The notes beneath the pieces are model-generated. The model worked only from the letters and a program-made list of their open reading frames with translations, was not told the origin of the DNA and did not search any database. A stretch of DNA of 58,751 nucleotides from a virus, in IMG/VR virus record IMGVR_UViG_3300030104_001141, positions 1 through 58,751 of that record; one strand, given 5' to 3'. Of the stretch, positions 20,801 to 40,567 are shown in pieces. Positions within the stretch are counted from its first letter, which is position 1, and each line of letters starts with the position of its first letter. The translations under genes and the position numbers were made by a program.

Positions 20801-23800
20801 TCTCCGATTCCAATTTGTCTAGGCTCTCCATACTCTTGTAGTAATTTACTGGGGTCTTCTTCAACTGTCTGTTCTCCTTTTGCAAAGTTATTATTTAAGA
20901 AGGCATAGTTATCTATCAAACCAGAATCCTTCAATCTATTGTAAGTATCTCTTGGAGTATTTTCAACATCAAGAAAATAATCTGTAGCTATAAGTCTACC
21001 TGTATCTACAAATCTATTCATCATTCTAACTAAAGCATGATTAAAGTCTGTATCAATTAATATAACATCTACACTATAACCTTTTGATTTTAACATAGAA
21101 ATTTTCTTTTCCATGCTTCCATATTTAGAACTACCACCAACAGAAGGTATAATTATATTAGCACCAAGATTTGTTATATTATCCATAACAGAAGCTGCAT
21201 ACTTACTTGACATTGGTGCTGTAGCATTAGCACCTAATCCACCTTTAAATTCAGGCATCATTTTTTTAGCATCATCTGAATCTATTATTGCTGATTTAGT
21301 TTTTTTTGCTAATTGTTCTGCAAAATAAGACTTGCCAGAAGCAGGTAATCCAATTAAGAAAGTAGCTTTTTTATCAACAGATAAAATATCTTCTGCATAA
21401 GCTTCAGCTATTTCTATTAAATCATGTACAAATTTTGGTTTTAGTTTTCCTTCTACTGTTGGTTGACTAAACATTATTCTTTCAGCTTCAATTAACGCAG
21501 GATGTTTTAATATATTACTTAATTGTTTTTGTGTAATGTTTCCTAGATTTATTTTAGATAATTGAAATCTTAAATCATTTAATGCATGAGTATATTCTCT
21601 GTCTGTCATTCCTCTAACAGTTCCATCTTCTTTAGTTAATGGAGCAACATCTCCACCAAGTCCAAGAGTTGGAGACATCATTAGACTAACTGTTTTTTCT
21701 GTTAACTCATCATCAAATTGTTTTATACTTTTTTGACCAATTCTTTTTTCATCTGCAATTCTATCTTTAATAGATTTTAATTCTATTGGTCCTAGTCTTT
21801 CTAACTTAGATGGTATTAAATCATTTACATTAACTAATAGTTCTTGTTCATATTGTCTTGAATAAGTTCTTTCATATGGACTTATTTGTAAATCTTCTTG
21901 TGTATCTTTTGGAGCTAAAGCATTTATGTCTGCTAATACTTTAGACCTAGGTATTAAATATTCTGTTAAAACATCATCATCACTTACTCTATAGCCTGAT
22001 TCAAGACGACCTGCTGCAAAGTCTTCTGCTATTGATTTGTTCATTGTTACAGGAACTACATCATAGTTAGGATTAATTTCTCCGCCTCTATATACAACTA
22101 TAAATTCTGGAAAATATTTCATAGAACTAAAAGTTATATCTTCTATAGCCTGTCTTACTTCATCAATCTTACCCATTCTATATTGAGGCAGACCTAAGTT
22201 ATCTATTATATAATCTTCATCACCTTGTAATATTGCTGCAATAGAATCAGAACCTTGATTATCTATATCTTTTAATATTGCATCAACTAACTGATAATCT
22301 AATCCTGACATTTCTTCAACACCTGTTAGTTCATCTGCAAATCTTTTATATAAATTATCTATTTGAAATTGAGAAGCTCTTATAGTATTTAAAGATTCTG
22401 TTGTCATTCTTCCTTCAGTTCTTTTTAAACTGTACTTAACTCTAGGAGATGATGTGCCTATAACTGGATTAACTTTTTCTGTTGATACAATATTTAAAGG
22501 AATACTTCTTGAGTCTACAGAAAATAATCCTTCTGATTTATATGGATTAGATATATATGGTTTACCAAGATTAAATAATTGAGGATGAAAAAATACAGAA
22601 TACTTAGGCACATTTACTGTAGATAATTTAGATGTATCACCAACAGTATCGTAATTAATATTACCTTGTAGTTGTGCTGTTTTTAAAGCATCTTGTTTAT
22701 TAATATGTAATATTGTTTGTGAGTTTCTTGATGGGTCTCCTACCATATACATAGGTATAGTAGTTACATCTTTACCAAATTGATTTTGCAAAAGCATACT
22801 GCTTAATAATCTAAAATAGTTTTGTGTAAGTTTTACATCATTATTATTATTTAAGTTTGTCTTTCTTCTATTTAATAAATAGTTATCAAATATATCTTGT
22901 TCTTCAAACAAAGCATTTGTTATCTTATTTAGTTTTGTAGAAAATTGTTTTTGTTGTGCTCCAAATAAAAACTCATTTACTAATGGTGACTTAGGTTTAC
23001 CATCTTGATTGGATGAATTTTTAAGAGAAAATTTTAAAGTAGGACTGTCTTGTATATCAGGCAAGTCTTCAACATCTGCTACACCTGCTGTTTGTTTGCC
23101 TCGTTCAAATATGTTTGCAAATTCTGTTTCAGTTCTATCTGTTTCTAATGTAGTTCTTACTACACCTCGTTGCCTGTTAGCTATTTCTCCAGAAGTAACT
23201 CTATTAAATATATCAGTAGCATTTGTAAATCCATTTCCTTTTAAAGAATTGGTTAGACTTGCAAAAAAGTTTTCAACCTTATTAAAAATTTGTTGCGGTT
23301 TACCTGTAACATTTTTTTTATTTTCACCAAATTCTTCAAATCCTAAACCTATAGCTTCTTCTATAATATCTGATTGAGATTCTATTGCAGATAATTCTAA
23401 TGCTTCTGGAGTATTATATGCTCCTTCTGGGTCTGTAATTATTTCAAGATATGTTTTCTTGCTACCTTTAGGCTTTTTTGTTCTAGCAAAATTTGCTAAA
23501 GTATTATATTCATCTTCAGTAAATACATCTGCTTGTCTAAGGGCATGCCAGTTTTCGTGAGTTAATATTCTTGCTAAATTATTTAAATATTTTTTTGGGT
23601 CTTTTTTATATTCAGTTCCGGCTCTATCTATAGGTATAATTATTTCATCAAAAACTTTATTGTATGCACCTTCTAATTCAATATTACCTTTTATATTTCC
23701 TATATAAGGGTCAAACTTAATAGACATTTCTGGATTCTGTTTTTTAAAATCTTCTGCAAAATTATCTAAATCTTCATTAATTTTAATATCTTCTGCAAAT

Positions 23801-26268
23801 TTTATAGAGCCATCAAAATTATATTTTTGACTACCTGTTCCTACCCATTTATTATTTTTTATATAACCAGAAGTAATTAAATCTTCTTTTAATCTTTTAG
23901 CTTCTGAATTATTTAAACCAGTTGCATCTTTAATTATTTTTAATGTAGTTTTTTTAGATTCTTCAATAGCATTTATAGCTTTAGAGTAATCATTTAATGA
24001 ATAACTTCTATGTGTAAAATCAGGTAGAAGTATTAAATCTGTTGATGGTGGTAAGCTTTCTATTACAGAATATAAAACTCTGCGTTGTGCAACACTCATT
24101 TTTTCTACAGAAGATTCACCTGTAAAATGCAAAGCAAGTCTTTTAAATGACTCATCATTTACATCACTATCTATATTTTTATTTTTAAGAACTCGTTTTA
24201 TTGTTGCAGCAGATACGCTGTTGGGTGCACTTGATTCATTAAGCAAAATGTTTTCACTTCTTGCATTCATTACTTTATCAAACTGTGCTTTAGATAAAAT
24301 ATTTTTTAATTGACTTATTGCTACATTAGCTTGATTGCCTGTAGCATCTTGAATTGTTTTTATTATTTCTTGGCTTACACCTATTTCATTTAACTCTTGA
24401 AAGCTAATGCCATCATAATAAGGATTAGAAATTTTTAATCCTAGATTTTGTATTGTAGAATTATTACTATCTAAATTTTGCATTAAGATATAATCGTTAA
24501 CTTTTTCTACAGCATACTGAGTTTGACCTATAAGATTTAAACCACTAGAAACTTGACCAGCTTTTTCTAAAGAATCATATGGTGAAAAGGGTTGATTTGT
24601 TTTTGGATTAATTAATACATTGCCTTGATAATCTGTAATAGAAAATGTGTTATCACCATTATCTTTTACAAGAAATGCATTAGGAGTTTCTGAATTTTCT
24701 GTAACAATTTTACTAGGAAAAGATGTAGGATTTTTAAATTCATCTGTAAAGCTTTTGTAAATTTCAAAGGCTTCACCAAATCCGGGCATGTCATTATTGT
24801 ATTCTTCTATAGTTTCAGAAAAAGCTTTTAAAGGATTCTCTCCACCTTCAATTCTTGCTTCAGATTTTTTGTTAATATCAAAAGCTATTTTTTCTGCTTG
24901 TTCTCCAAAACCTTTTTGTTTCATTTGTTCTAAATAAATTTCAAAAAAGTTTTTACCTAATCTATATTGTGTTTCAGTTTTTAATGCTTGTGATTTTTTT
25001 ACATCTTGAAATCCAGCAGATGCTTGTCCTAGTATTGCTTCAGCAGGAGCAAAGGCAAACTCACCTATTATCTCCATATTTATATCACCAAATCTTAAGG
25101 TTTCACCTTCTTCTAAAGTAAAGTATTGACCAGTAGCTTCACCTGCACCACCTAATGCACCTTGTAATGGTGCTTGAATTAAGGTATTCATTGCTTGTTT
25201 TGCAAATATATTTTGAAATCCAAATGGATTAAAAACTTTAGTAGCCATACCAAAAGATAAAGCATCAAATGTACCTATTGCAGTACCTCTAATTCTTGCA
25301 TATTTTTTTGCTTCAGCTATTAATTCTTTATTACCCATAAACTTAGCAACAGATTGTGGATTGTTTACATCCATTCCTTTCTTTTGCAAGTATTCTATAT
25401 ATGAGTAAGCATTATCTATAGCACCAGATGTAAAACCTGTAGCTGCTGAACCTGCTAGAACATTACCTGTTGCTAATGTTGTTCCTACACCTGCTCCAAG
25501 AGAAGCTAACATAGGAACAAAACTTGTACCCATTACTTCTAATGGTAAACTTAGGTCAAAGTTTTCTGAATAGGGATTTAAAAAAGCAAATGCATCAATA
25601 AGACCTTCTGATTCTGCTAAAGCATTAAAAGCTTTTGAGTGTCCAAGACTTTGTATATATTCATTATTTTCTTTAGTGTCTTGTATATTTTCTTGAACTC
25701 TTTGCTCAAGACCTTTATCTTGTCTTTCTTGTAATAAATCACCAAAAGCTTGAGCCATTGGTGGTACTGAATAAAGGTTTTGAAAACTTATATTTTTTCT
25801 TTTTTTATCTAGTTCTTTTTGTGATTTTCCAGTACCTTTTATATCTAATATTAGTTGTTCTTTGTCTGCTTCTTGTTTAGAAGTTAAAGGTCTTATACCT
25901 TCTAAAGCAATATAGCTATCTAAAAGTTGTTGTTTTTTTAAAAGTTCAGGAGCTGTTGCAGATAGAGCATAAAAGTTTGCAGCATTTTTTGCTTGTTTTG
26001 CACCACCTATAACTTGTTCGACAAACGAAGATTCTCCTTCTGTTTCAGTAAAATTTAAATCTACAGGTATTAAAGACTGCAATACTTTTTGTGTATGACT
26101 AAGTTCATCTGTAGGAATTATTTTAGTTTTAGGTTGAGGTTGAGATTGGAATTGAGGTGTATATGCAGATAAAAATTTTTCTTTTTCTTCAAAATAATTT
26201 TCATCAGTTACATAATCAGGAAGATAATGTTTTAATCCATCATCTGTATATACAATATATTTAGCCAT
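17854..26268 (-). CDS. Giant polyvalent internal virion protein (2,804 aa)
   Basis: This protein of roughly 310 kDa is probably carried in the virion and injected with the DNA. Visible parts in order: a Gly-rich hydrophobic segment near 246-290; a zincin motif HENWH (H904-H908), so a putative metallopeptidase; an ADP-ribosyltransferase-like segment with VYRGGE (R1394) and VPVTMNKSIAEDFA; a P-loop kinase of the zeta-toxin/chloramphenicol phosphotransferase type with GLPASGKS (G1640-S1647) and IIDSDD; and a long C-terminal region containing RRGNNKSFQLV...FLNPRLQGVDVFYRG, typical of the LPD38 domain of phage polyvalent proteins. Long linkers separate these parts. Such proteins are thought to disarm the host on entry. 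It overlaps the upstream internal-protein gene by eight bases. The LPD38 and kinase calls are firmer than the ADP-ribosyltransferase one. Confidence 0.82.
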   Translation of the reverse strand: MAKYIVYTDDGLKHYLPDYVTDENYFEEKEKFLSAYTPQFQSQPQPKTKIIPTDELSHTQKVLQSLIPVDLNFTETEGESSFVEQVIGGAKQAKNAANFYALSATAPELLKKQQLLDSYIALEGIRPLTSKQEADKEQLILDIKGTGKSQKELDKKRKNISFQNLYSVPPMAQAFGDLLQERQDKGLEQRVQENIQDTKENNEYIQSLGHSKAFNALAESEGLIDAFAFLNPYSENFDLSLPLEVMGTSFVPMLASLGAGVGTTLATGNVLAGSAATGFTSGAIDNAYSYIEYLQKKGMDVNNPQSVAKFMGNKELIAEAKKYARIRGTAIGTFDALSFGMATKVFNPFGFQNIFAKQAMNTLIQAPLQGALGGAGEATGQYFTLEEGETLRFGDINMEIIGEFAFAPAEAILGQASAGFQDVKKSQALKTETQYRLGKNFFEIYLEQMKQKGFGEQAEKIAFDINKKSEARIEGGENPLKAFSETIEEYNNDMPGFGEAFEIYKSFTDEFKNPTSFPSKIVTENSETPNAFLVKDNGDNTFSITDYQGNVLINPKTNQPFSPYDSLEKAGQVSSGLNLIGQTQYAVEKVNDYILMQNLDSNNSTIQNLGLKISNPYYDGISFQELNEIGVSQEIIKTIQDATGNQANVAISQLKNILSKAQFDKVMNARSENILLNESSAPNSVSAATIKRVLKNKNIDSDVNDESFKRLALHFTGESSVEKMSVAQRRVLYSVIESLPPSTDLILLPDFTHRSYSLNDYSKAINAIEESKKTTLKIIKDATGLNNSEAKRLKEDLITSGYIKNNKWVGTGSQKYNFDGSIKFAEDIKINEDLDNFAEDFKKQNPEMSIKFDPYIGNIKGNIELEGAYNKVFDEIIIPIDRAGTEYKKDPKKYLNNLARILTHENWHALRQADVFTEDEYNTLANFARTKKPKGSKKTYLEIITDPEGAYNTPEALELSAIESQSDIIEEAIGLGFEEFGENKKNVTGKPQQIFNKVENFFASLTNSLKGNGFTNATDIFNRVTSGEIANRQRGVVRTTLETDRTETEFANIFERGKQTAGVADVEDLPDIQDSPTLKFSLKNSSNQDGKPKSPLVNEFLFGAQQKQFSTKLNKITNALFEEQDIFDNYLLNRRKTNLNNNNDVKLTQNYFRLLSSMLLQNQFGKDVTTIPMYMVGDPSRNSQTILHINKQDALKTAQLQGNINYDTVGDTSKLSTVNVPKYSVFFHPQLFNLGKPYISNPYKSEGLFSVDSRSIPLNIVSTEKVNPVIGTSSPRVKYSLKRTEGRMTTESLNTIRASQFQIDNLYKRFADELTGVEEMSGLDYQLVDAILKDIDNQGSDSIAAILQGDEDYIIDNLGLPQYRMGKIDEVRQAIEDITFSSMKYFPEFIVVYRGGEINPNYDVVPVTMNKSIAEDFAAGRLESGYRVSDDDVLTEYLIPRSKVLADINALAPKDTQEDLQISPYERTYSRQYEQELLVNVNDLIPSKLERLGPIELKSIKDRIADEKRIGQKSIKQFDDELTEKTVSLMMSPTLGLGGDVAPLTKEDGTVRGMTDREYTHALNDLRFQLSKINLGNITQKQLSNILKHPALIEAERIMFSQPTVEGKLKPKFVHDLIEIAEAYAEDILSVDKKATFLIGLPASGKSYFAEQLAKKTKSAIIDSDDAKKMMPEFKGGLGANATAPMSSKYAASVMDNITNLGANIIIPSVGGSSKYGSMEKKISMLKSKGYSVDVILIDTDFNHALVRMMNRFVDTGRLIATDYFLDVENTPRDTYNRLKDSGLIDNYAFLNNNFAKGEQTVEEDPSKLLQEYGEPRQIGIGDVRRSYAERSDLASAIEEAETEVELQKQKSIKAGVTPVISDNASPEAKLSAINAQKDIKNASTINLDVDSIIDGIDNNTKLKYSFKKSGKPLKPATERLVKKMTIRDLLPDNETISSKVLKSFKSVDPLKFREAILDQYARIAETDYSAGRKTEQGQKFLSASLSAAAAMYHSDRSGDIYQQAFMHGVPVYNTKKGFTTVVDISPEDGKPIKAPHEIFKNAYNNPQMMWAFQAVLAVKRETRFNNEGRKVKINAKDKKDAVIALQEHPEIQTMIDDYQRWNRHLVRFLIDTGVLDEKTGNVWMEHSDYIPFYRAMEGEEGFKGPQIFQGMQLSPFKRAKGSEEKNIVDPITGITNNARAAINAGMKNVAANRTMRNLVIIKAAEQVKNNTAGPNIVKIKVKGKTKSFSVDDPDNYNLFTVMTGGDFLPTNMLMSVMRGSKRMVSDLITRMPDFWFRQVVRDSMSAWFLSGANYVPILSQLKESAKITYGMMTGNLPEEYVALRNAGIIQGYERGVRDIDSTQTLVENAYKKERYKEKTTLSKVATAPLDIITKVWDILGQGTAITDAATRVSVYKDTLKRTGDVAEALSQAMEVLNFTRRGNNKSFQLVTQSTMFLNPRLQGVDVFYRGLTGKYGIGRGLTRRKRAAAVALRMLSYISLMPYYYLLVRDSEEWEEASEETKDNYIIIPGSKELAGSPLGIPLPFEAGFLTTTVPMRLLAKTFGDDTQKDLRESMVRNITNTLKINPLEMTAIQPLVENYFNYDFYTGRKIVPEYLDDIGDLAYRPSTDTLYKKVGDELNISPLYIENLVSGYTGTAGTYAMTFVDSLITKGPNEAKSASMRVDQLPVVGAFLLPTEGNRLENQFFDLKEMVDNQVESFRVLEKKILDEGDMGALGMTKEYKIEYKEALQGLQKDLKKTSDQLGEIRQAKAIINNSQELSSNQKRDQILELDEIENDLLRGMDISGIRKFYIEELQPDLRIRN

Positions 26269-28867: not shown

Positions 28868-29360
28868 TGTTAAACCTCTTTTCAAATACTGTGTATGCTT
28901 TGTCCCAACCAGATTTTCCTAACCATTTCCAGAAACCAAATCTGGCTGTACATTCCATTCCTTCACAATTGTTATCTTTTGCCCATGATTCTGATTTTTC
29001 TAAAAATAACCATGCCCAATCATGTAAATCTTTTCCACCTAAATATTGTACTGCTAATCTTTTTGTATTTGGATAGTGTACAAATTCTGTAGTAGCTACA
29101 CCTACAACTGTATTATCTTCTGTAAATATAACCCATAACTCTTGTCTTTGTTGAATACAAGCTGTTTTAAGTGATTCTAAATTCCATCTACCATTCGACC
29201 TTTTAACTGCTTTTTTAAGATAAGGAGTAACATCTTTCCATAAAGTATGTACATAATTACCCGGTACTAATGTAATTATATAGTTTTGTTCAGGTTTATA
29301 GTTTACTTTATTAATATCTTCTTGATAATTTTCTTTTATTTCTATTACTTTTTGATTCAT
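28860..29360 (-). CDS. GNAT-like protein
   Basis: This 166-residue protein has the outline of a GNAT acetyltransferase: LWVIFTEDNTVVGVATTEFVHYP as the central strands, AVQYLGGKDLHDW where the acetyl-CoA loop lies, and FLEKSESWAKDNNCEGMEC. The classical Q/RxxGxG/A loop is not intact. Proteins of this type recur among virion genes of short-tailed phages (compare the T7 gp13 region), where they may be structural. Acetyltransferase activity is doubtful. Confidence 0.55.
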   Translation of the reverse strand: MNQKVIEIKENYQEDINKVNYKPEQNYIITLVPGNYVHTLWKDVTPYLKKAVKRSNGRWNLESLKTACIQQRQELWVIFTEDNTVVGVATTEFVHYPNTKRLAVQYLGGKDLHDWAWLFLEKSESWAKDNNCEGMECTARFGFWKWLGKSGWDKAYTVFEKRFNNE

Positions 29361-31759
29361 CTTGGTAGAAGTCCTCCAGCATTTGATAGTTGTGGTGCTT
29401 GTTTAGTTGTTCCTGTTCTTTCTTTTCTAACTCTATCTAGCATTCCATCAAGTTCTTCTGCTCCGGAATCTGATGAACCATCTCCTAAGCCTGATACTAC
29501 ATCAGCAGGTACTATGTATTCTCCCGGTGATACAGCTACAGGTCTTTGATTTCCTATCATTCCCATAACCTCATCATCCATTCCACTACCTTCACCTTCT
29601 ATCATTCCTTGAGTTTGTGCATTTCCTTGTGGATTTAAAATCATTTCTCTTACTTGCATAAATATTTCATTACCATATTTTTCAATAAACATATTTATTA
29701 CTGCATCTTGATTAGGAGATTGACCCATAATAGCTTGTGCTACTTGTTGTATTTCTTCATTACTAGGAGTTAATCCACCCATTTGTAATTCAAATCCCAT
29801 TTGTCTAACAGCTTCTTTACCTTTTTCTGTTTGAGCTAAAGCTTCAAGCCCTTCATTAGGTAATTGTTTTCCTTCAGACATACGCATAGGCATTCTTTGT
29901 CTATTTACATTTAATTCTTCTGGTCTATTTATAGATGCTAAACCTAAATCATTTCTTAAAGTTAATGGCATTGGAGGCACTATAGGCATAGACTCTTGCA
30001 TTACTGGTGGCATCATTAAATCTTCTAAAGGTGGTCTTTGTAAAACTCCCCTTCCTTCATCATAAGCCTTTCTAAGGCTTTCACCAGTTAAATCTACTCC
30101 ACCTAAAATACCTTCACCTTGTTTTGTTTTGTCAGGATTTTGTGCAATAAATTTTTTAAAATTATCAAATGTTCTGGCTCCTCCTATACCTGAGTTTTGA
30201 GTTGGTGGAGGTGTGGGTATAACAGGAGGCATCATTAATTCTTCTGGTCTAAAGAAATCTTCTGAACGCCTAATACCGGGACCAAAACCTCTATCTTCTA
30301 AAGGTATTTCGTCAAATCTTTTACCTAAAAAACCTCCGCCTTGTCTTACTATGTCTGGGTTTTGTTCAATCGCATCCCTAATCTTAAACATAAAACTACC
30401 TCCTCTTGAGTCTTGAGTTAGTGGTTCTGATAACGATACAGGTACAGGAACAGGTACAGAATTTGGTATTGTTGTATTTGATATATTATTCAATATACTT
30501 TCTTTTGGTAAAAAACTATTTTGTGTTACTCCCATAGGAAAATTAATAGGATTTATAAATCTATCATAATCAAAAGGTATATTATCAATATCAAATCTAT
30601 CATAATCAAATCTATCAAAAGGTATATAACCAGCACCGCCTCCGGGTCCGCCACCATAGCCACCTCCACCGTAGCCACCTCCACCAATACCATCAAGATA
30701 ATCACCTAAATATGTAGCAGGTGTATTAGACCTTGGAAAATAATTAAACTCAGGGTCTATACCAGCTCTATAATTACTTGCTGGAACAAATTGTCCTGTT
30801 GGCATTTCTGTACCTGTAAGTTCATTAACCTGCATTTTTTCATAAGCTTGTCTAACAGGTTCTTTAGATTCTCTAGGTTTGTATTTATAATCTTGTAATC
30901 CTGCCATAGCTGATTCAAAACTATTATCTGGTATTACATTTCTTGGTAGACGAGGAGGTAACTTACGAGGAGGTATTTTTGGAACTTCATCCATTATTGT
31001 AACACCACCAATCGGACCACCTTCAGCTAAAGACATTATTCCACCTGATGCTCCATAGTATCTTGAACTCATAGGTATATTTTCAGGGTTATCTGCATAC
31101 ATTTTTTCTCTAGCTTTTTTTCTATCTAATTCCATTTGTGCCATTTGTCTTTCAAAATTTTCTTGTGCTTCTATTACACCTTTTTGACCTTCACCCATAG
31201 CTATTGGTAAATAAGAACTAGGTTTTGCTAGTTGCGATGCAAATGTTGAAACTCCTTCGCCAAGTGTTTGTGTTGCAGCAGCTTCAGCAGCAGCTTGTGC
31301 AGGAGCTACAGCAGCTTCAGCAGCTAATGCTTGTTTAACACCTTCTCCTGTAACTAAATTAGCAGCAGCACCTGTTTCTCCTGCTGTTGTTAATGCTTCA
31401 GCAGCTCTACCTTCTGCTCCAAAACCAGCAGCACCAAGAGCTTTACCTAAACCAAATCCTGTTATACCTGACATAATGCCTTGTTTTAAATCTCCTGATT
31501 GTATAGCAGTAGCTATACCAGAACCTATTGCTCCTGCAACTGGTGCAGATAAACCAGTAAATAAAGCAGTACCTGCCATACTACCTAATAGTGGTGCTAA
31601 AAAAGGTAAGAATGCTTCTGGCTGACCTGTCTGTGGATTTTGTGTTAAAGGCATAATAGATGCTAACCCTTGCACTTCTGCTGGATTAACATGCATAAGC
31701 ATAGTATCGCCATAACGACCTTGTGATGCCACATTATTAGTTTGTTGTTTTATATCCAT
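29357..31759 (-). CDS. Large low-complexity virion protein
   Basis: This 800-residue protein begins with a hydrophobic Ala/Gly-rich region (residues 50-175) that could insert in membranes. A linker of Gly/Tyr repeats and FDRFDYDRF-type repeats (355-405) follows, then duplicated segments (QNPDIVRQGGGFLG and QNPDKTKQGEGILGG) and a conserved end NQRPVAVSPGEYIVPADVVSGLGDGSSDSG. The C-terminal motif recurs in marine short-tailed phages. Likely an internal or tail-tip protein involved in DNA delivery. Overlaps the GNAT-like gene by four bases. Confidence 0.6.
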   Translation of the reverse strand: MDIKQQTNNVASQGRYGDTMLMHVNPAEVQGLASIMPLTQNPQTGQPEAFLPFLAPLLGSMAGTALFTGLSAPVAGAIGSGIATAIQSGDLKQGIMSGITGFGLGKALGAAGFGAEGRAAEALTTAGETGAAANLVTGEGVKQALAAEAAVAPAQAAAEAAATQTLGEGVSTFASQLAKPSSYLPIAMGEGQKGVIEAQENFERQMAQMELDRKKAREKMYADNPENIPMSSRYYGASGGIMSLAEGGPIGGVTIMDEVPKIPPRKLPPRLPRNVIPDNSFESAMAGLQDYKYKPRESKEPVRQAYEKMQVNELTGTEMPTGQFVPASNYRAGIDPEFNYFPRSNTPATYLGDYLDGIGGGGYGGGGYGGGPGGGAGYIPFDRFDYDRFDIDNIPFDYDRFINPINFPMGVTQNSFLPKESILNNISNTTIPNSVPVPVPVSLSEPLTQDSRGGSFMFKIRDAIEQNPDIVRQGGGFLGKRFDEIPLEDRGFGPGIRRSEDFFRPEELMMPPVIPTPPPTQNSGIGGARTFDNFKKFIAQNPDKTKQGEGILGGVDLTGESLRKAYDEGRGVLQRPPLEDLMMPPVMQESMPIVPPMPLTLRNDLGLASINRPEELNVNRQRMPMRMSEGKQLPNEGLEALAQTEKGKEAVRQMGFELQMGGLTPSNEEIQQVAQAIMGQSPNQDAVINMFIEKYGNEIFMQVREMILNPQGNAQTQGMIEGEGSGMDDEVMGMIGNQRPVAVSPGEYIVPADVVSGLGDGSSDSGAEELDGMLDRVRKERTGTTKQAPQLSNAGGLLPR

Positions 31760-32098: not shown

Positions 32099-32294
32099 CT
32101 GTAACTCCCATTAATAAAAATTGATGTCTTCTCATAGCTTTGCTACTAATAGGATTTTGCATTTTTTTTGATGCACCTATTTCTTGATGTATGTCTTGTA
32201 TTCCTTGCTCAATAGTTCTTCTTAAAAGAAATTGGTCTTGTTGTTGATAATCTAAAGTTGGTAGTGGTAAAGGTATTGTTGTTTTTTCTGCCAT
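32091..32294 (-). CDS. Small tail-region protein
   Basis: This 67-residue protein has a Pro/Leu start (TTIPLPLPTLDYQQQDQF) and a helical middle. No family is recognised. It is tightly coupled between the nozzle-like gene and the beta-rich protein, so a minor structural or assembly role is likely. Confidence 0.6.
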   Translation of the reverse strand: MAEKTTIPLPLPTLDYQQQDQFLLRRTIEQGIQDIHQEIGASKKMQNPISSKAMRRHQFLLMGVTGG

Positions 32295-34138
32295 TATCTT
32301 CTTCCATCTGGTTTAATATCTAGTCTTAAATCACCAAGTCTCCAACCATAATCATTTGATGAATTAGATACTCTAATAGCACATTGTCTGCTTCTAGCTC
32401 TTGTGTTTGTAAATGTTGAAGCTGGTGTAACTGATACAGTAGATAAAGTAGATAAATCTTCTAATGGATAATTTCTACCTTTAATTGTAATAGTTACATC
32501 ATCTGATGTACTTTGTTGGTCTCTAAAAGTTAAGTCAGGTATTATTTTAGAAACAAACATATATCTTTCACCATCAGGGTCTAAATCAAAATCACTTGAT
32601 TCTATAAATGCAGTAAAGTTTTCACCATCAGAACTATGACCTACTTCGTGATTATATAAATAATTTATATTAGTATTATCATCTTTACTTGCTGCTACAG
32701 GAAAAACTCTTGTTGGTGCATCATTCCATGCTGTTCTAGTAAAGTTATCTGTTGTTGTTCCTATAGACCATGTTTGTTCTAAATAATTATATATAACATA
32801 TCTATTTATTTCTGTACTATCTTTAGATGGATAAAACCACATTACTTCATTATGTTCAGGATTACTTGTTCCAAATATTTTAAATAGTTGTTCTGTATTA
32901 ATATCACTAAATATATAATCTAATACTGTACATGGCAATCTTTGAGCACTTCCTGAATAAGTATAAAAAGAACCTCTATCCATAAAGAATACTTGTCCAT
33001 TTGCATTAATAGCAGCATTAGGAGATATCATTGACATTCCTGTTGCTACTTCATTAAAACTAAATATAAATGGCTGACCAACAAAACGCATAGATACTAT
33101 ACCTGCATCAGTCCATATAAGTATTTCTTGTCTTGTTCTTAAAGCTCCAATAATAGTAGAACCTAAAGATAATTGAACACCACCTGCTGAGTTTGTTGAA
33201 GAAGGTGTCCAGTCTATAATACTTTCAGCATCTGAAAATCTAACTAATAAAGGATTTAGTGTACTAGAACCTATAGCATTACAACCAAAAGCTATAACAT
33301 GCCTATCAATATCTGACATCATTATTTGTAAAACTTTAGTTGGAACATTACTTGCATCAGTTAAGCTTGTAGCATTTACTGCTCTTGTAGTAACTCCTGA
33401 AGATTCATCCCAATAATAAATTCCACCTAGTCTAATAGCAGCTATTGTATCATCACCAAAATTATCTATAGACCAAAGTCTTAATTGATTAGTTGATGTT
33501 ATACCTGCTGCTGCTCCCCAAGTGCTTGAACCCCAAGTTCCTACACCCCAACCTGTTGAACGAACATAAACATCAAGACCTGAATTTATTTGATACACAG
33601 CATCTGCTCCTGAACCACCATTACCTGTATCACTACCATTAGCTGTAGCTGATGCTTCAAATGTAAATGTATCTGTTGTTATTGATGTAATTTGATGCTC
33701 TGTATTTAATACACTATCAGTAATATTTCCACCTAAACTTACAGCTCCTGATATTGTTACAAAATCTCCTACAACAGCTCCATGTGCATCATCTGTAGCT
33801 GTTATAGTTGTACTTCCATTAGTAGCAGCAAAAACTATACCATTAGTTGTTGTTGCTCTAATAGGTGTTATATCATTAAAATCATCACCTTCTAAAACAT
33901 AAAGTTTTTGATGTGTTCCTAATATTGCATAGTCTGTTTGTTCTGCACTTCTATAAACATAAATTTTTCTACAAGTTCCTATAAAACTTTGATTTGTATA
34001 TTTAGACCAACCACCTATTTTTTCTGGTCTACCTTTTCTAAATCTAATTTTATCTGCATCAAACCAACCACCTTCATTACTGTAATCACTTCCTTCTTTA
34101 TTTATTCCGGGTTGAAATTCAAATTTTCTTAATGTCAT
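32294..34138 (-). CDS. Tail nozzle-like protein
   Basis: This 614-residue beta-rich protein opens FEFQPGINKEGSDYSNEGGWFDADKIRFRKGRPEKIGGW, a signature of the large tail tube/nozzle proteins of podoviruses in the SU10/T7-gp12/P22-gp10 functional class. Later segments resemble beta-propeller repeats, and the end finishes DYGWRLGDLRLD. It would form the distal part of the short tail below the adaptor proteins at 46679 and 47660. Family membership is inferred from these patterns and the position. Confidence 0.72.
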   Translation of the reverse strand: MTLRKFEFQPGINKEGSDYSNEGGWFDADKIRFRKGRPEKIGGWSKYTNQSFIGTCRKIYVYRSAEQTDYAILGTHQKLYVLEGDDFNDITPIRATTTNGIVFAATNGSTTITATDDAHGAVVGDFVTISGAVSLGGNITDSVLNTEHQITSITTDTFTFEASATANGSDTGNGGSGADAVYQINSGLDVYVRSTGWGVGTWGSSTWGAAAGITSTNQLRLWSIDNFGDDTIAAIRLGGIYYWDESSGVTTRAVNATSLTDASNVPTKVLQIMMSDIDRHVIAFGCNAIGSSTLNPLLVRFSDAESIIDWTPSSTNSAGGVQLSLGSTIIGALRTRQEILIWTDAGIVSMRFVGQPFIFSFNEVATGMSMISPNAAINANGQVFFMDRGSFYTYSGSAQRLPCTVLDYIFSDINTEQLFKIFGTSNPEHNEVMWFYPSKDSTEINRYVIYNYLEQTWSIGTTTDNFTRTAWNDAPTRVFPVAASKDDNTNINYLYNHEVGHSSDGENFTAFIESSDFDLDPDGERYMFVSKIIPDLTFRDQQSTSDDVTITIKGRNYPLEDLSTLSTVSVTPASTFTNTRARSRQCAIRVSNSSNDYGWRLGDLRLDIKPDGRR

Positions 34139-34140
34139 TA

Positions 34141-34584
34141 TTAAACCTCATGCCATTCTTTGCCTTCAAATAGCAAAGCTTCTGCTTCTCGTCTTCTTAT
34201 TAAGCCTTCTAAAACTTTGCCACCTGCTTTGTTCCAGCGTTTAATTTGACTGGGTATTAAATGATAATCTCCTGCATTTAAAAACTTTAACATAGTGGAT
34301 GCTTTTAAATTAGCTGGTCCTAAATTAAATACCCAACTTACTAAAGAATCAAATTGATTTTGTTCTAATTTTACTTTAACTAAATCATTTACATAGCCTT
34401 CATATTCTTCCATTTCATGCAATAACAATTTATCAGCTTCTTCTTGGGTAATAGTATCACCCTCTTTTACACCTTTGGTTGAGCCATATCCTATTGTTAA
34501 AACATTAGCTGCACATTTGTAAGCTTCTAACTCACAACCTTCAAACTTTTTAATTAAAGACAATCCCTCTTGTGATATCTTCAT
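34141..34584 (-). CDS. Endolysin, GH24 lysozyme
   Basis: This 147-residue phage lysozyme hydrolyses peptidoglycan at the end of infection. The catalytic set is E15 (KKFEG), C24 in the position often held by Asp (AYKCAANVLTIGYG) and T30, the Glu-Cys-Thr version known from lambdoid endolysins. The start at 34584 has GGAG six bases upstream; the longer in-frame reading overlaps the holin. No signal peptide or membrane anchor is seen, so it depends on the holin encoded one base upstream. Confidence 0.9.
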   Translation of the reverse strand: MKISQEGLSLIKKFEGCELEAYKCAANVLTIGYGSTKGVKEGDTITQEEADKLLLHEMEEYEGYVNDLVKVKLEQNQFDSLVSWVFNLGPANLKASTMLKFLNAGDYHLIPSQIKRWNKAGGKVLEGLIRRREAEALLFEGKEWHEV

Positions 34585-34585
34585 A

Positions 34586-35065
34586 TTACTCTCCTTTATC
34601 GTTGGTGTGAGATGCTCCAAAATAGAACGAAATAATCGCACTTGCTAATCCTCCAAGATAACCAAGCACTAAATTAATTAATGCTTCGCTGTTTTGTTCT
34701 GGTGGTTGTAATGTTACTAAAAATATATAACCAAGAAAACCGCCTATGGTTACTAAACCAATAATACGAGCAGTCCAATCTTTACTAAACATACCTCTAG
34801 CATGTTGTTTATCTGCTACTTCCAGCTTAAATACATCTACATCAAGTTCTTTCATTTGTACTTCAAACTCTTGTTCTGCTTTCTTTAGCTCCATCATTTG
34901 TTCTGGAGTGGCATTTTGTATTGCTTGTTGTACAGATTTTTGGTCATTAGAAACACCTAAAACTTCTGCTATTTTACCCATAGCCATATTACCAAGAGGT
35001 CCACCCATTGCTGAACCTATTGTAGGTGCTACTGCTCCTACTATATTTTTTAATATTGCTTTCAT
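34586..35065 (-). CDS. Holin (3TM/GTA holin type)
   Basis: This 159-residue protein has a Gly/Ala/Met-rich N-terminus (VGAVAPTIGSAMGGPLGNMAMGKIAEVLG), a charged helical middle, then two membrane spans (IIGLVTIGGFLGYIFLVTL and LVLGYLGGLASAIISFYFG). This is the layout of the 3TM_holin family found in gene transfer agents and phages of alphaproteobacteria. It makes the inner-membrane holes that let the adjacent lysozyme reach the wall. Confidence 0.83.
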   Translation of the reverse strand: MKAILKNIVGAVAPTIGSAMGGPLGNMAMGKIAEVLGVSNDQKSVQQAIQNATPEQMMELKKAEQEFEVQMKELDVDVFKLEVADKQHARGMFSKDWTARIIGLVTIGGFLGYIFLVTLQPPEQNSEALINLVLGYLGGLASAIISFYFGASHTNDKGE

Positions 35066-35078
35066 AAAACTCCTAAAA

Positions 35079-36833
35079 TTAATTTATTGTATATATTTGT
35101 ATAGGTTTTTCTTTGCCTTTTACATATATGCTTTCTAATTCTTTTAATATTATTTCAGAATTAAAGTTTTTTGCGTTAATTGTATTATATCCAATAACAA
35201 TATCTTCACCAACTTCCTTAGTAGAGCTTTCTAATCTAGCAGCAAGATTAACAGCATCGCCTATAGCTGTATAATCAAACCTTGTTTTGCTTCCCATATT
35301 ACCAATAACAGCATAACCAGTATTAACACCTACTCCTATTTCTACATCAATATTAGCTTGTTTAATTTTTTCTTGTATTTCTTTAGCACATAATACTGCG
35401 GCAGTTTCATGGTCTGGTAAATCTATAGGTGCATTAAATATTGCCATCATTGCATCGCCTATATATTTATCTACCATTCCTTGATATTTTTTTACTGCAT
35501 CTGCTTGTATTGTTAAAGCTTTATTCATAATTTTAGTTACTTCTTCTGGTTCAAGCTTTTCAGACATAGCAGTAAAACCTCTTACATCTGTAAATAAAAA
35601 TGTACAGTATCTTCTTTCACCACCTAATACTAATGAATCTGGATTATCTTGTAATTTTTTAACTTGTCTAGGGTCAAGATAATGTTCAAATTGTTTTTTA
35701 ATCTGTTGTCTTAATTTATATTGTTCTCTAAATCTAAGATAAAAAGCTATTGAGCCAGTTATAAATTCAGATATTAAAGTCCATGTAACATCTATTAATA
35801 TTCCTTTTTGTATAAAATAATATCCTGTACTTGCTGTTATAAACATAGTAATTAAACTTAATGTTATTCCCCATGTAATTCCAAAATAAAATAATATATA
35901 CCAAACTAAAGAAACACCTAATACAAATATTAACAAGTTAATACTTATTGCCCAATCAGGTATGTAAGGACTATCTTGTATTAAAATTGATTCTGCAAGT
36001 GCTGCTTGTATTTTATGTGGTTCTAATAAACCAACTGGAGTTGCAATCTGTGGCATAACTCCGTTAGCTGTTACACCTACGAATACAAACTTACCGTTTA
36101 CATTCATTTCTTGTAAATTAGTTTCTTCTGTTTTTACCCAGCTTATCCACTTACGACCAAGACTATCTGTTTTAACTGGTGGTATTCCTCTTATTGATAT
36201 TTCTGATATACCATTATCATTAGTTTTTATAATGTAAGTTTTAACATTAAACAAAGCTTTATATATTTGTGTGCCAAAACTAGGAATCCAATTATCATCA
36301 GGTGTTTTAACTAAAAGAGGTATTCTTCTTACAAGTTGGTCAACTTCTGTGGGAGCAATAGCTAAACCAGATAGCGTTTTATTTGCTAAAAGAGGATGGT
36401 TTTGTTTTACTCCCGAACTAAGTATACCACCATTATTTTCTCCAAGTACAACAGTTCCAGATGTAGAAGGATAAACACCTTTACCATCTTCAAACATAGC
36501 AATTACAGATGGTGCATATTCTAGTGCTTCAGCAAATACTTCATCACCACCCATTCTATCTGCTTGTGGAAAACTAATAACCCAACCAATACCAATAGCT
36601 CCTTTGTTTAGTAAGTCAATTTGTATTTCTGCAAGTCTTTGTCTAGGTAATGGATAACCACCTTCACGCTCTACATCTTCTTCAGTAATATTGAGTATGA
36701 CAAAGTTACCAGACTCTTGAGGTGTTTGTATAAAGGTATCAAATACTTTTAACTTAAGTATTTCTGTAGGTGTTGATTGATATACTAATGGCAATACAAG
36801 TATTATAAGTATTATGAATATTAACTTTTTCAT
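35079..36833 (-). CDS. CHASE2-adenylate cyclase, membrane sensor
   Basis: This 584-residue protein has an N-terminal membrane anchor (3-19), an extracytoplasmic CHASE2-type sensor (about 25-285), three membrane helices (about 296-365) and a class III cyclase domain (about 405-584). The cyclase site looks complete: metal Asp residues D416 (FTDVRGFT) and D460 (GDAMMA), adenine-selecting K456 and D526, and N529 and R533 (DAVNLAARLE). It should make cAMP in response to a periplasmic signal. It starts as TAATG at the end of the FecR-domain gene, forming one unit with the curli-type genes. A bacterial-type signalling enzyme in a phage late operon is unusual. A TATTAA palindrome lies in its coding sequence (35928). 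Confidence 0.9.
   Translation of the reverse strand: MKKLIFIILIILVLPLVYQSTPTEILKLKVFDTFIQTPQESGNFVILNITEEDVEREGGYPLPRQRLAEIQIDLLNKGAIGIGWVISFPQADRMGGDEVFAEALEYAPSVIAMFEDGKGVYPSTSGTVVLGENNGGILSSGVKQNHPLLANKTLSGLAIAPTEVDQLVRRIPLLVKTPDDNWIPSFGTQIYKALFNVKTYIIKTNDNGISEISIRGIPPVKTDSLGRKWISWVKTEETNLQEMNVNGKFVFVGVTANGVMPQIATPVGLLEPHKIQAALAESILIQDSPYIPDWAISINLLIFVLGVSLVWYILFYFGITWGITLSLITMFITASTGYYFIQKGILIDVTWTLISEFITGSIAFYLRFREQYKLRQQIKKQFEHYLDPRQVKKLQDNPDSLVLGGERRYCTFLFTDVRGFTAMSEKLEPEEVTKIMNKALTIQADAVKKYQGMVDKYIGDAMMAIFNAPIDLPDHETAAVLCAKEIQEKIKQANIDVEIGVGVNTGYAVIGNMGSKTRFDYTAIGDAVNLAARLESSTKEVGEDIVIGYNTINAKNFNSEIILKELESIYVKGKEKPIQIYTIN
35928..35943. repeat. TATTAA-N4-TTAATA palindrome, copy 9 (in coding sequence)
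   Basis: Perfect copy with centre CAAG inside the membrane-helix region of the CHASE2-cyclase gene. Confidence 0.6.
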
Positions 36834-37951
36834 TAATCACTCTGAGTTATAGTTATAACAGAATCACTACCACCATTTACTTTAATAACATTAGATATAC
36901 CATCTTGTATAAAAATTACTGTATATGCATTATTTCCATCTAAATCTAACTGCACAGATTCGCTTACACTTCTTCTTAAACTAACAACTTGTCCTGTTAT
37001 TATAGTTGTTATTTGTGTATCAGGGTCTTTACCTAATAATGTTCCTGATATTTGTGTACTTGTAGCTTGTGGTAGTTGGTCTTCTTCTTCAGCTATAGCC
37101 AATCCATCTAACACATTTAATAAATCTTCTAGGTAATTTACATCAAGATAATTTATATCTAACTCTGTAAACTCTAAACTATCTTCTTTTAAATAATCTT
37201 CTGCAAGATAGTCTACATCCAAGTCATTAAAATCAAGTACGCTATCTGTTTGTGTGCTTGTAGCTTCTTCTTCTATAACTACTTCTTCTTTAGGTGGCGT
37301 AACAATTAACATATTATCTATTACATCTAGCGTTAAATCTAAGATAACTGGTTTGCTTGGTGCTGATTCAAATACACTTACTGTAGTCGCTTCATAGGGC
37401 TTACTTAATAAAACTGTTCCCATAGCAGTAACTACTTCTATTTCGCCACTAGAAAGCCCTAGAGAGTCTGGTAGTAGTATTATAAGACTACGACCTAGTT
37501 CATCAACTGTAGCCGTAAAATCAGTCCCTCTAATCGCTATATTAGCTGTAGGTGTTTTAAGAGATATATTTTGTTTATCTATTTTATTAAGATTGCCTGT
37601 AATAAACCTTGCTGTACCAAGACCAAAAGTAAGAGCCATTTTTGCTTTAGATGGGTCAGGGTCATAAATATATTCATCAATAAGTAATTGTGAATGTTCA
37701 GTAAGCTTTACAATAGAATCATCAAGAAATGTAATAGCCATTCTTCCATTAGTAGTAATAGCTTCATCATTACTTTGTATAGCAAATTTTAATTCGGCAT
37801 CTAATGGTTTATCTCGTACTATTTGTGCTGAACCATTTAGTTCAGATATATCTCCAATATCAGCAGCTTGTGCTTGTACCTTGGTCGTTTTGAATGACAC
37901 AGACAGTAGAAGCAGCATTACCGCCAATTGATATAATTTTAAGCCAGTCAT
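36833..37951 (-). CDS. Secreted FecR-domain protein
   Basis: This 372-residue protein has a signal peptide (about 1-28, ending VQAQA), then a FecR-type beta domain (about 31-190) with SELNGSAQIV, ITFLDDSIVKLTEHSQLLIDEY and SLKTPTANIAIRGTDF. A low-complexity acidic segment of DLDVDYL-like repeats (about 235-285) and a C-terminal beta segment follow. Periplasmic FecR-domain proteins are often encoded beside CHASE2 cyclases in bacteria and may be the sensor's ligand or partner. The start lies 92 bases inside the curlin-like gene and has only a weak ribosome site, but it is the only start giving a good signal peptide. Confidence 0.82.
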   Translation of the reverse strand: MTGLKLYQLAVMLLLLSVSFKTTKVQAQAADIGDISELNGSAQIVRDKPLDAELKFAIQSNDEAITTNGRMAITFLDDSIVKLTEHSQLLIDEYIYDPDPSKAKMALTFGLGTARFITGNLNKIDKQNISLKTPTANIAIRGTDFTATVDELGRSLIILLPDSLGLSSGEIEVVTAMGTVLLSKPYEATTVSVFESAPSKPVILDLTLDVIDNMLIVTPPKEEVVIEEEATSTQTDSVLDFNDLDVDYLAEDYLKEDSLEFTELDINYLDVNYLEDLLNVLDGLAIAEEEDQLPQATSTQISGTLLGKDPDTQITTIITGQVVSLRRSVSESVQLDLDGNNAYTVIFIQDGISNVIKVNGGSDSVITITQSD

Positions 37952-38591
37952 TATCTTGGGTGCTCAGTTGTTGTATGTTAAAAGTTCTTTGACCGCCTGT
38001 ATGGTCTAGCCAAAAATATCCACCTGCTGAAGCATTAACACCAGTACCTGTATAAGTTACTGTATTATCAGAACCATCTATATCCATATAGTTTGTTGCT
38101 CCATCAATATTTATATTTGATGTTACTGTGTTGCTAGAACCTTGAATAATCCAATCTAAATTTAAATTTGCTGCTATTGCTGTAGTACCTTGATTTAAGG
38201 TAAATGTATTACTACTACCTGTTACTGCTATATTTTGGTCAGAACCGGCAGAACTATATGTATTAGTTGGGTCTACTTGTATTGTAAAAGTATTTGTATC
38301 TCCAGTAAAATTATATAACCCTGTAAAAGTAGTAGCGTTTATATCACCTAAAAATTTATTGGTATTACCAATCATATTAATATCAAGTGTCATAGTAGCA
38401 CCATCTAAATCAAAAGCAGTTAAACTTCCTGCTGATGAATTAAGTCCACCAATAATATTAGATATACCTAGTTGTTCTAGGTCTATATTAGCTCCAGTAC
38501 CAGACTGGTCTACATAAATTTCGTTATCAGCCGCGTATATTGTCGATGCACTCAGCATCACAATCAGGCTTATTAATTTCAATTTCTTCAT
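37860..38591 (-). CDS. Secreted curlin-like repeat protein
   Basis: This 243-residue protein has a clear signal peptide (MKKLKLISLIVMLSASTIYA, cleavage near residue 20). The mature part opens EIYVDQSGTGANIDLEQLG, which fits the curlin repeat (Q.G..N....Q), followed by further Asn/Thr/Gly-rich strands such as QNIAVTGSSNTFTLNQ. It ends with two Cys residues (VCVIQNDQGTSTSC). It is the likely cargo of the CsgG/CsgF-type pore encoded upstream. No CsgB or CsgE was found. The start at 38591 was chosen for the signal peptide; it overlaps the CsgG-like gene by 65 bases. Confidence 0.75.
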   Translation of the reverse strand: MKKLKLISLIVMLSASTIYAADNEIYVDQSGTGANIDLEQLGISNIIGGLNSSAGSLTAFDLDGATMTLDINMIGNTNKFLGDINATTFTGLYNFTGDTNTFTIQVDPTNTYSSAGSDQNIAVTGSSNTFTLNQGTTAIAANLNLDWIIQGSSNTVTSNINIDGATNYMDIDGSDNTVTYTGTGVNASAGGYFWLDHTGGQRTFNIQQLSTQDNDWLKIISIGGNAASTVCVIQNDQGTSTSC

Positions 38592-39399
38592 ATTTCCAAA
38601 AACTCCTGTCATAACCGACATTAATTATTTCTAATACAGCACTTTCAATAGCTTTTATTAATGCTATTGTTGTTGATTCATTTCTGGAATTACCCATTTC
38701 TATCTCAACAAGTTCTGTTCCTGCTTCTATAAAACGAAATACATCTTCTGATTTGCCATAACTAAATATAGTTTTTTCAGTCATTACTTCTATTAGTATC
38801 TCACCTGTGGCTACTGATACCATTCTTAAAGTTATTGTTACGCTATCTTCTCTATACTGAGCACTAGAACCAATACCTAAATATCTTGCTCCAACACCAC
38901 CTGTAGTTAGATTAGTTTCATAAGCTATAACAGCACCTTCAATCAAAACTCCTGCAAATAATAAAGGTCTTAATGCTTTCTTTTTTTCTTCATCTGATAA
39001 AGTTTGTTCTCTAGCAGACCTTATTAATTGTCTTTCTTTAGTAAGATTATCTAAACCTACTCTTTCAACTACTGTAAAAAACTCTCCATTACCTGCGTGT
39101 TTTAAAGCTCGTATAAGTAGTGCATTTGGTTGTTGTGTTATTGCAGTACTAAATAGTGCAAATTCACTATTGCTTTTTCTTTGACCTGTTTGGTCAGTAA
39201 AAGCTGTAGGATATACAGCTACTACAGGTTTTATTATTGGTTTTTTTACATTAGCTAATTCTTTAGATTGTAATTCAGATATATTTACAACATTATTTGC
39301 TTGAAATCTTTGTTCGTATGTATCTTCAAATTGATTAAATATAGAACAGCTAGAAAGTAAAAGTGCCAATAGGTATCGTAATTTCAGTAACTGTTCCAT
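38527..39399 (-). CDS. csgG: CsgG-like outer-membrane curli secretion lipoprotein
   Basis: This 290-residue protein is near the 277 of E. coli CsgG. It has a lipoprotein signal with lipobox LSSC (Cys18) and almost every CsgG landmark: VAVYPTAFTDQTGQ, FSTAITQ, VERVGLDNLTKERQLIR, EGAVIAYETN, GGVGARYLGIG, QYREDSVTITLRMVSVATGEIL, KTIFSYGKSEDVFRFIE and a final AIESAVLEIIN. CsgG forms the nonameric outer-membrane channel of curli export. By eye the constriction loop differs: of the three E. coli residues (Tyr, Asn, Phe) only the Phe appears kept. It overlaps the CsgF-like gene by 50 bases. Confidence 0.92.
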   Translation of the reverse strand: MEQLLKLRYLLALLLSSCSIFNQFEDTYEQRFQANNVVNISELQSKELANVKKPIIKPVVAVYPTAFTDQTGQRKSNSEFALFSTAITQQPNALLIRALKHAGNGEFFTVVERVGLDNLTKERQLIRSAREQTLSDEEKKKALRPLLFAGVLIEGAVIAYETNLTTGGVGARYLGIGSSAQYREDSVTITLRMVSVATGEILIEVMTEKTIFSYGKSEDVFRFIEAGTELVEIEMGNSRNESTTIALIKAIESAVLEIINVGYDRSFWKYEEIEINKPDCDAECIDNIRG

Positions 39400-39850
39400 C
39401 TGCTTCCGTTATTTTAAGTGTTAAAGTTACACCATCGCTTGTATATTCTATAGTATTACCTTCTAAGGTTATTGTTCCTGAGCTTTGTGGTGTTTCGCCA
39501 AATAAGTTATTTACTAACTGTCTTGATAGTTCTGCATAAACTCTTGATTCTAAGTTACGCATAAATCTTGCAAGTGTAGAGTTTTCTTTTTCTCTTTCTA
39601 TTTCTTCTTGTAAGGCTTTGATTTCTTCTTTAATTGTAAGCTTACGACTAAACTCTTGATTTTCTATAGTTAGGTAGTGCGAAGATGTACCTACGCCATT
39701 AAAGCTAGGCGATTTAAATTTAAAAGTTATAGTATCTGCTTTAATATTTTGTACAAATATTCCTACAAACATAACTATTCCTATAACAGCAAGTATTTTA
39801 ATTATTGTATTTTTTTCTTTTTCAGAAGATTTAATCTTTTCTTTGGTCAT
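39350..39850 (-). CDS. csgF: CsgF-like curli assembly factor
   Basis: This 166-residue protein has an N-terminal hydrophobic signal or anchor (about 18-36), then ITFKFKSPSFNGVG, the diagnostic start of mature CsgF, which plugs into the CsgG channel. It continues with a charged helical insertion, then MRNLESRVYAELSRQLVNNLFG (matching the CsgF helix) and a beta C-terminus ending ITIPIGTFTF. CsgF couples export to fibre nucleation at the cell surface. It is first in the cassette and starts 20 bases inside the preceding small membrane gene. Confidence 0.87.
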   Translation of the reverse strand: MTKEKIKSSEKEKNTIIKILAVIGIVMFVGIFVQNIKADTITFKFKSPSFNGVGTSSHYLTIENQEFSRKLTIKEEIKALQEEIEREKENSTLARFMRNLESRVYAELSRQLVNNLFGETPQSSGTITLEGNTIEYTSDGVTLTLKITEADGTVTEITIPIGTFTF

Positions 39851-40186: not shown

Positions 40187-40567
40187 TTAATAGTCACCCC
40201 AAACTTTGCTTTTAGTACCTCCGTGGTACTCAACTGCATGACCCTCGTCTATAAGCATTTGACAAATATCTTTACCATCTTCTGTGTAAGGTATTCCAAG
40301 TATGCGACCATATTTACCTTTACCTAAAGATTTAACTTTTAAATTGCCTACGCAAAGTTCTTTTAATCTTTCTTTAGCAGCAAGACCTAGTTTTTTTTCA
40401 GCTAAGTCTCTAGTACGACTTTCAGGAGTATCAATACCAGCAAGTCTTACACGCTGTTTATGTAGCTTTACATCAAAGCCTAAATCAAGACAACAATCAA
40501 ATGTATCTCCATCTACTATTCTTTCTAATGTGGCGTTATATACAAACGCATCAGGTGCTGTAGCCAT
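40187..40567 (-). CDS. Staphylococcal-type thermonuclease
   Basis: This 126-residue SNase-fold nuclease has the catalytic residues of the family: D21 in VDGDTF, R41 and D46/E49 in RLAGIDTPE, and R88 in KYGRILG. No signal peptide is visible, so the protein is either cytoplasmic or packaged. It cuts DNA or RNA with calcium; in a phage it may degrade host nucleic acid. Starts as TAATG overlap with the basic protein upstream. Confidence 0.87.
   Translation of the reverse strand: MATAPDAFVYNATLERIVDGDTFDCCLDLGFDVKLHKQRVRLAGIDTPESRTRDLAEKKLGLAAKERLKELCVGNLKVKSLGKGKYGRILGIPYTEDGKDICQMLIDEGHAVEYHGGTKSKVWGDY

Follow-up and report, generated by a model that had tools for sequence, protein, structure and literature searches.

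A probable curli-type export cassette in a swap slot beside the lysis genes of a probable SAR11 phage

Components of the bacterial curli system have been described in phages of SAR11 bacteria. The csgF and csgG genes were reported in pelagimyophages (PMC7029224, the origin of the term 'sibling capture') and in Melnitz, which was said to lack csgA and csgB and for which a pinholin or secretin role was proposed (PMC9004378). A study from 2022 described, in nine podophage genomes of the HTVC023P type, a type VIII secretion system (T8SS) module made up of a 'histidine kinase' ('HK'), CsgF, CsgG, CsgA/B, FecR, often a second CsgA/B, and an adenylate cyclase (PMC9599517). The same study found the module in myophages too, recorded homologues at every one of the 65 GOV2.0 stations as well as metatranscript reads, provided trees, and independently named the cargo CsgA/B. 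PMC12753301 makes no mention of curli. The published readings compete, with fibre export (PMC9599517, PMC7029224) on one side and a lysis-timing pore (PMC9004378) on the other.

Here we analyse the IMG/VR virus sequence IMGVR_UViG_3300030104_001141 (the window, 58,751 bases), which carries such a cassette (Table 1). A first-pass annotation of the window had placed adjacent and overlapping csgF-, csgG- and curlin-like genes at 37860-39850 and had read them as a curli export unit; the coordinates and overlaps are correct, and all three ORFs are on the minus strand. The csgF-csgG-curlin set is real and its cargo is linked to csgG, but the unit is not new. Because its gene order is published for the same phage type, the cassette counts as a known kind; it is an instance of the published system, and the cargo is no novelty of this genome. 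To the published account the present analysis adds a slot in which the cassette is swapped, a re-reading of 'HK' and 'FecR', a measure of constraint on the cargo and an invariant CsgF plug. It also extends the three genes first noticed by a membrane gene (X) upstream and by a FecR-domain gene and a CHASE2-cyclase downstream. We read the cassette as a phage-borne type VIII (curli-type) export system by which the infected cell would secrete one beta-repeat protein late in infection, altering its own surface, and give this reading a probability of roughly 0.6.

Pore, plug and cargo

The genes follow one another in the transcriptional order thermonuclease-like, X, csgF, csgG, curlin-like, FecR-domain, CHASE2-cyclase, holin-like, lysozyme and structural gene, and the succession CsgF, CsgG, cargo, FecR-domain protein and cyclase is strictly co-linear in nearly all loci that show the region. 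The open reading frames (ORFs) of csgF, csgG and the cargo overlap at their ends, the median overlap in relatives being 50 bases between csgF and csgG and about 95 between csgG and the cargo gene, and those of the FecR-domain protein and cyclase share one base; ORF starts were set as far upstream as possible, and the true overlaps are perhaps shorter. The cargo probably starts at an internal methionine (MKKLKL..., near 38591).

Two features of a type VIII system are present, a CsgG-family lipoprotein with a lipobox cysteine and a CsgF with an N-terminal CsgG-binding motif. The lipobox cysteine is invariant in 20 relatives, the family core of CsgG is intact, and the profile that matches the E. 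coli CsgG structures at about 3e-65 was built from 20 sequences. In CsgF, residues F45, P48, F50 and G52 are invariant in 25 of 25 sequences, myophages included, and the motif at residues 45-52 presumably corresponds to the N-terminal part of E. coli CsgF that binds CsgG. It has been suggested (PMC9004378) that phage CsgF perhaps no longer pairs with CsgG. Such a loss of pairing is disfavoured because the plug motif is invariant; this conservation speaks against it while falling short of proving binding.

The curlin-like nature of the cargo is suggested by its relatives and its own G-x-x-N turns. Curlin_rpt matches occur in 26 of 32 relatives at a lax E<=10, the Melnitz homologue exceeds the Curlin_rpt cut-off with 3 repeats, and two Melnitz genes, both above that cut-off, are annotated as curlin-associated repeat proteins in the deposited record; myophage versions hold second curlin-like genes with clear Curlin_rpt. 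The cargo of the analysed genome contains 10 G-x-x-N turns against 3.0 in shuffled sequences (p=0.0002), and a stricter strand-turn-strand pattern, picked after inspection of the sequence, occurs 8 times against 0.7, a count that none of 5000 shuffles reached. Four G-x-x-N pairs are invariant throughout the family, down to 28% identity. Structure prediction yields a chain of about 14 short beta strands (pLDDT 74, pTM 0.75), which VIA-align places near beta-solenoid chains such as SufB/SufD (Z up to 17), a likeness that would be one of fold class only and not of kinship; a Foldseek search with the same model gave no match below E=0.001.

The cargo is under purifying selection, and has the lowest median ratio of nonsynonymous to synonymous substitution rates (dN/dS) among eight genes measured: 0.12, compared with 0.16 for CsgG, 0.18 for CsgF, 0.25 for lysozyme and 0.27 for the structural gene, values that are pairwise counts over related sequences, short overlapping stretches included, and indicative only. 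The cargo is therefore not a relic. Wherever the sequence of a relative extends far enough, the cargo gene is linked to csgG; the refuting case named in the first-pass annotation, a cargo with no amyloid-type repeats and no link to csgG in relatives, therefore does not apply.

Several points nevertheless weigh against export. In the alignment the phage CsgG has replaced the positions of E. coli Y51 and N55 and kept that of F56, the three residues which we take to form the E. coli constriction; the initial statement that CsgG retains its lipobox and nearly all family landmarks holds for the PF03783 match, LLSSC and the invariant cysteine, but not for these two of three residues. The cargo of the analysed genome, taken alone, stays under the Pfam cut-off (PF07012, E=0.54), and the proposed curlin-repeat cargo is suggested by the repeats in relatives and the G-x-x-N enrichment. 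The analysed record gave no match to CsgE (PF10627) in a search that was positive for an E. coli control genome; CsgE is an accessory in E. coli and is not essential to type VIII membership, and it is often absent from Alphaproteobacteria (PMC9599517). Lastly, no clumping of Melnitz-infected cells was seen, and a divergent pore was argued for, in PMC9004378.

Mechanistically, CsgG would form a lipid-anchored outer-membrane pore that CsgF plugs and extends from outside, and the curlin-like protein would cross it unfolded and fold into a beta-solenoid or fibre once outside, on the cell surface. The FecR-domain protein, also secreted, may act with this surface structure, and the CHASE2-cyclase, an optional add-on, may sense the periplasm and make cyclic AMP when triggered. 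Late expression is suggested by gene position only. The changed surface could serve as a shield against superinfection or promote adhesion to neighbours or debris. Coating of the cell, trapping of neighbours or virions, and blocking of superinfection, all raised at the outset, have equal standing on present evidence, while strong aggregation is disfavoured because of the absence of clumping noted above.

A slot shared with a pore-less cassette

Relatives for the slot were drawn by the structural gene next to lysozyme, so the sampling is independent of csgG. Both flanks are present in 27 loci. The curli cassette occupies the slot in 13 of them and an alternative in 12, while 2 have neither and none has both, an exclusion with a Fisher p=6e-6 that is uncorrected for relatedness. 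The alternative cassette (for example L124:5212-8899, L132:5204-8882 and L166:4827-8637) encodes a secreted Asn/Thr-repeat protein whose C-terminal domain is conserved, a secreted protein of 687-767 aa with an acidic middle, for which no Pfam family came over the cut-off, and a membrane coiled-coil protein of 118-119 aa. The lysis genes (holin-like or spanins, and lysozyme) stay in place beside either cassette. No csgG was found anywhere in the available sequence, mostly fragments, of 11 records without curli in the slot (9 alternative, 2 neither). The available text of the earlier pelagiphage T8SS account does not mention an alternative cassette in the same slot.

The C-terminal domain of the Asn/Thr-repeat protein is present in cultured SAR11 phages. 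In HTVC023P the genes after the one with this domain encode a large, acidic secreted protein, a membrane coiled-coil protein and a peptidase, and the myophage Mosig has a similar pair after its own repeat-domain gene; the large proteins of these isolates resemble those of the alternative cassette by layout only, with no BLAST match. The curli isolates HTVC008M and Melnitz are absent among the nine isolates or records with the domain. With the alternative form present in HTVC023P and Mosig, both forms can be compared with isolates.

What the two cassettes have in common is a secreted repeat protein, because the alternative has no pore. We tentatively propose, as a possibility that we hold at less than even odds, that the pelagiphage slot beside the lysis genes accommodates interchangeable cassettes, curli-type or pore-less, which dress the infected cell and perform the same surface function, the FecR-domain/CHASE2-cyclase pair reporting on the surface structure. 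If phages do remodel infected SAR11 surfaces, this matters for aggregation and superinfection among cells that rank with the ocean's most abundant.

The swap also bears on the rival idea that CsgG, alone or together with CsgF, serves as a lysis-control pore akin to a pinholin or secretin, with the curlin-like gene secondary, as proposed for Melnitz in PMC9004378. In its favour the podophage cassette directly precedes the lysis genes and the CsgG constriction residues differ from those of E. coli; we consider it unlikely, given that holin-like or spanin genes and lysozyme persist beside the cassette, that relatives swap the whole of it for a pore-less secreted set, that constraint on the cargo exceeds that on CsgG and that the CsgF plug motif is invariant. 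Moreover, the CsgG pore lies in the outer membrane and would be unable to depolarise the inner membrane. Because the alternative cassette is pore-less and lysis genes accompany both, delivering a secreted repeat protein is a more likely role than lysis, and the early suggestion of a lysis-aiding outer-membrane pore is weakened accordingly by the slot. Cargo constraint, the intact CsgF plug and the exchange with a pore-less cassette together favour fibre export over a lysis pore.

The exported or released cargo might instead end up on virions or debris and not on the cell that made it, which would help virions to find or hold new hosts. The late position beside structural and lysis genes fits this, and the alternative cassette likewise encodes large secreted proteins, but virion proteins need no outer-membrane export pore, Sec signal or lipoprotein, and the idea seems quite unlikely. 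It is highly improbable that the CsgGF pore is an uptake channel for nutrients or cofactors, as suggested in PMC7029224 and PMC9599517: with no CsgE gate in the record the pore might stay open, but an uptake role leaves unexplained the conserved cargo, the CsgF plug, the FecR-domain protein and the exchange with a pore-less secreted cassette.

Accessory genes and the surrounding genome

Gene X adjoins csgF in podophages and in the myophages HTVC008M and Melnitz, in one or two copies encoding proteins of about 81-116 aa with one membrane helix and a coiled coil. X belongs to the cassette, because in one contig (L087) it stays with csgF while a lysozyme-like gene is more than 6 kb off. The 'HK' genes published before csgF in PMC9599517 are, judging from their position, probably X, that is, genes for membrane coiled-coil proteins of 85-116 aa. 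A histidine kinase was rejected as an identity for X, which is too short for the dimerisation/phospho-His and ATPase domains of a kinase, over about 200 aa in all, and matches no kinase family.

The FecR domain (PF04773) was matched in 34 of 34 relatives. The N-terminus of the FecR-domain protein is signal-peptide-like, a hydropathy scan finds no peak above threshold and no membrane span, and none of the neighbouring ORFs is a sigma factor gene. A FecR-type sigma regulator is unlikely because of this N-terminus and the lack of a hydropathy peak; from its sequence the protein does not look like the membrane regulator of the ferric citrate system and reads as secreted. That it forms, with the cyclase, an iron-responsive regulator of the cassette, as PMC9599517 has it, is therefore very unlikely: the idea takes from the family its name only, and both genes do lie in the operon, but no span is predicted between the N-terminus and the FecR domain, no sigma factor is adjacent, at least five loci without a cyclase (L086, L134, L149, L162 and L163) retain the FecR-domain gene, and in Alphaproteobacteria such genes neighbour CHASE2 cyclases in loci that lack csgG. 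Its structure prediction was unusable (pLDDT 35). By eye its C-terminus is curlin-like (Q-x-G-x-x-N, then ITITQSD). A hidden curlin repeat there was rejected, as an HMM of this region scored curlins no better than shuffled curlins, and Pfam Curlin_rpt was found in 0 of 34 FecR proteins. The repeated acidic-aromatic motifs in its middle (DFNDLDVDYLAEDYLKED...) resemble, by eye only, those in the alternative cassette's large protein (LVEDYLEP...).

The cyclase keeps the class III core of two metal Asp, a substrate Lys/Asp pair and Asn/Arg: aligned with solved cyclases, D416, K456, D460 and R533 are invariant and D526 and N529 are at 90% or more. Around 20 alphaproteobacterial CHASE2-cyclase loci, a FecR-domain gene lies within about 2.7 kb in 13 and within 1.5 kb in 8, against an expectation in these stretches of about 0.2 (the 20 genomes, about 75 Mb together, hold 74 Pfam FecR matches, roughly one per Mb), and csgG was found in none of the 20 stretches read. 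Because these loci pair the two genes without csgG, their association exists in bacteria independently of curli, and two bacterial gene sets are combined in the phage cassette.

By terminase (about 55% identity) and portal (41-47%) the analysed genome is closest to the SAR11 phages HTVC027P and HTVC023P and the environmental genome 023Pt_psg01, so the host is probably a SAR11 bacterium. No close relative among isolate phages was found by nucleotide search, and an 800-aa protein (29357-31759) had no tblastn match among isolates. In many relatives a spanin-like overlapping pair (inner-membrane coiled coil and lipoprotein) separates cassette and lysozyme (L024:9115-9802, L132:8879-9557), where the analysed genome has the holin-like gene instead. 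Elsewhere, a 2804-aa protein (17854-26268) with an HExxH-like motif and P-loop kinase-like and ADP-ribosyltransferase-like stretches, seen by eye, is probably an internal virion protein, and a 223-aa ORF (7008-7679, 'LYHGTS' start) resembles an ADP-ribosyltransferase-type domain by eye.

Table 1. Cassette genes, motifs and flanking genes in the window
Feature	Position	Strand	Evidence or remark
Thermonuclease-like gene	40187..40567	-	Upstream edge of swap slot, flanks curli and alternative cassettes alike; nuclease call by eye
Gene X, N-terminal membrane helix and coiled coil, 116 aa	39831..40181	-	First gene of the cassette
csgF, 166 aa, Sec-type N-terminus	39350..39850	-	PF10614 5e-17, 62.7 bits (cut-off 25.8); phrog_35372 4e-43
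CsgF plug motif F-x-x-P-x-F-x-G, residues 45-52	39695..39724	-	Alignment of 25 sequences
csgG, 290 aa, outer-membrane lipoprotein pore subunit	38527..39399	-	PF03783 2e-49; PDB CsgG 3e-65 by profile
CsgG lipobox LLSSC, acylated Cys18	39346..39360	-	Sequence; Cys invariant in relatives
Curlin-like cargo, 253 aa; signal peptide then G-x-x-N repeats	37860..38621	-	Repeats, relatives, model
Secreted FecR-domain protein, 372 aa; acidic middle, beta-type C-terminus	36833..37951	-	PF04773 3e-9
CHASE2 - class III adenylyl cyclase, 584 aa	35079..36833	-	PF05226 3e-26; PF00211 6e-20
Holin-like membrane protein, lysis-module flank	34586..35065	-	phrog_1544 8e-28 (no assigned function); two hydropathy peaks; adjoins lysozyme in relatives
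Phage lysozyme, flank	34141..34641	-	PF00959 8e-48
Virion structural protein, 614 aa, downstream flank	32294..34138	-	phrog_3287 7e-85

Comparison with bacterial and phage curli systems

A scan of genomes for a bacterial donor mainly returned contigs in which the cassette sits next to phage genes, along with a few genuine bacterial curli operons. Four contigs with the phage cassette had been binned as Maricaulis, Neomarinimicrobiota, Flavobacteriaceae and Pelagibacter (L086, L087, L088 and L092); most of them also hold phage lysis or structural genes, and they are probably mis-binned phage. A 1499-base record labelled Salmonella phage (OR851715.1) holds csgG and is possibly a bacterial fragment.

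With E. coli curli (csgBAC/csgDEFG) the phage cassette shares the CsgG pore family, the CsgF family with its plug motif and a Sec-exported beta-repeat substrate. It differs in having no csgE, no csgC or csgD that was seen, degenerate cargo repeats and two changed constriction residues, and in its additional FecR-domain protein, CHASE2-cyclase and membrane coiled-coil protein. The curli operons of Alphaproteobacteria (Amylibacter, L094; Ascidiaceihabitans, L095) likewise run from csgF-csgG to curlin-type genes, but have three of the latter and, unlike the phage cassette, are without the FecR-domain gene, cyclase and upstream membrane gene. The alphaproteobacterial FecR-domain/CHASE2 neighbourhoods place a secreted FecR-domain protein near a CHASE2-cyclase, as in the phage, with no csgG nearby and with a distance and orientation that vary, so that they are not one fixed operon. 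Relative to the pelagiphage T8SS module (HTVC008M; PMC9599517, PMC7029224 and, for Melnitz, PMC9004378), the analysed genome differs in its single curlin-like gene, with none between FecR and cyclase, and its single upstream membrane gene, whereas the genes and their order, from the small upstream gene(s) to the cyclase, are the same, and terminase and portal place it in the same phage group.

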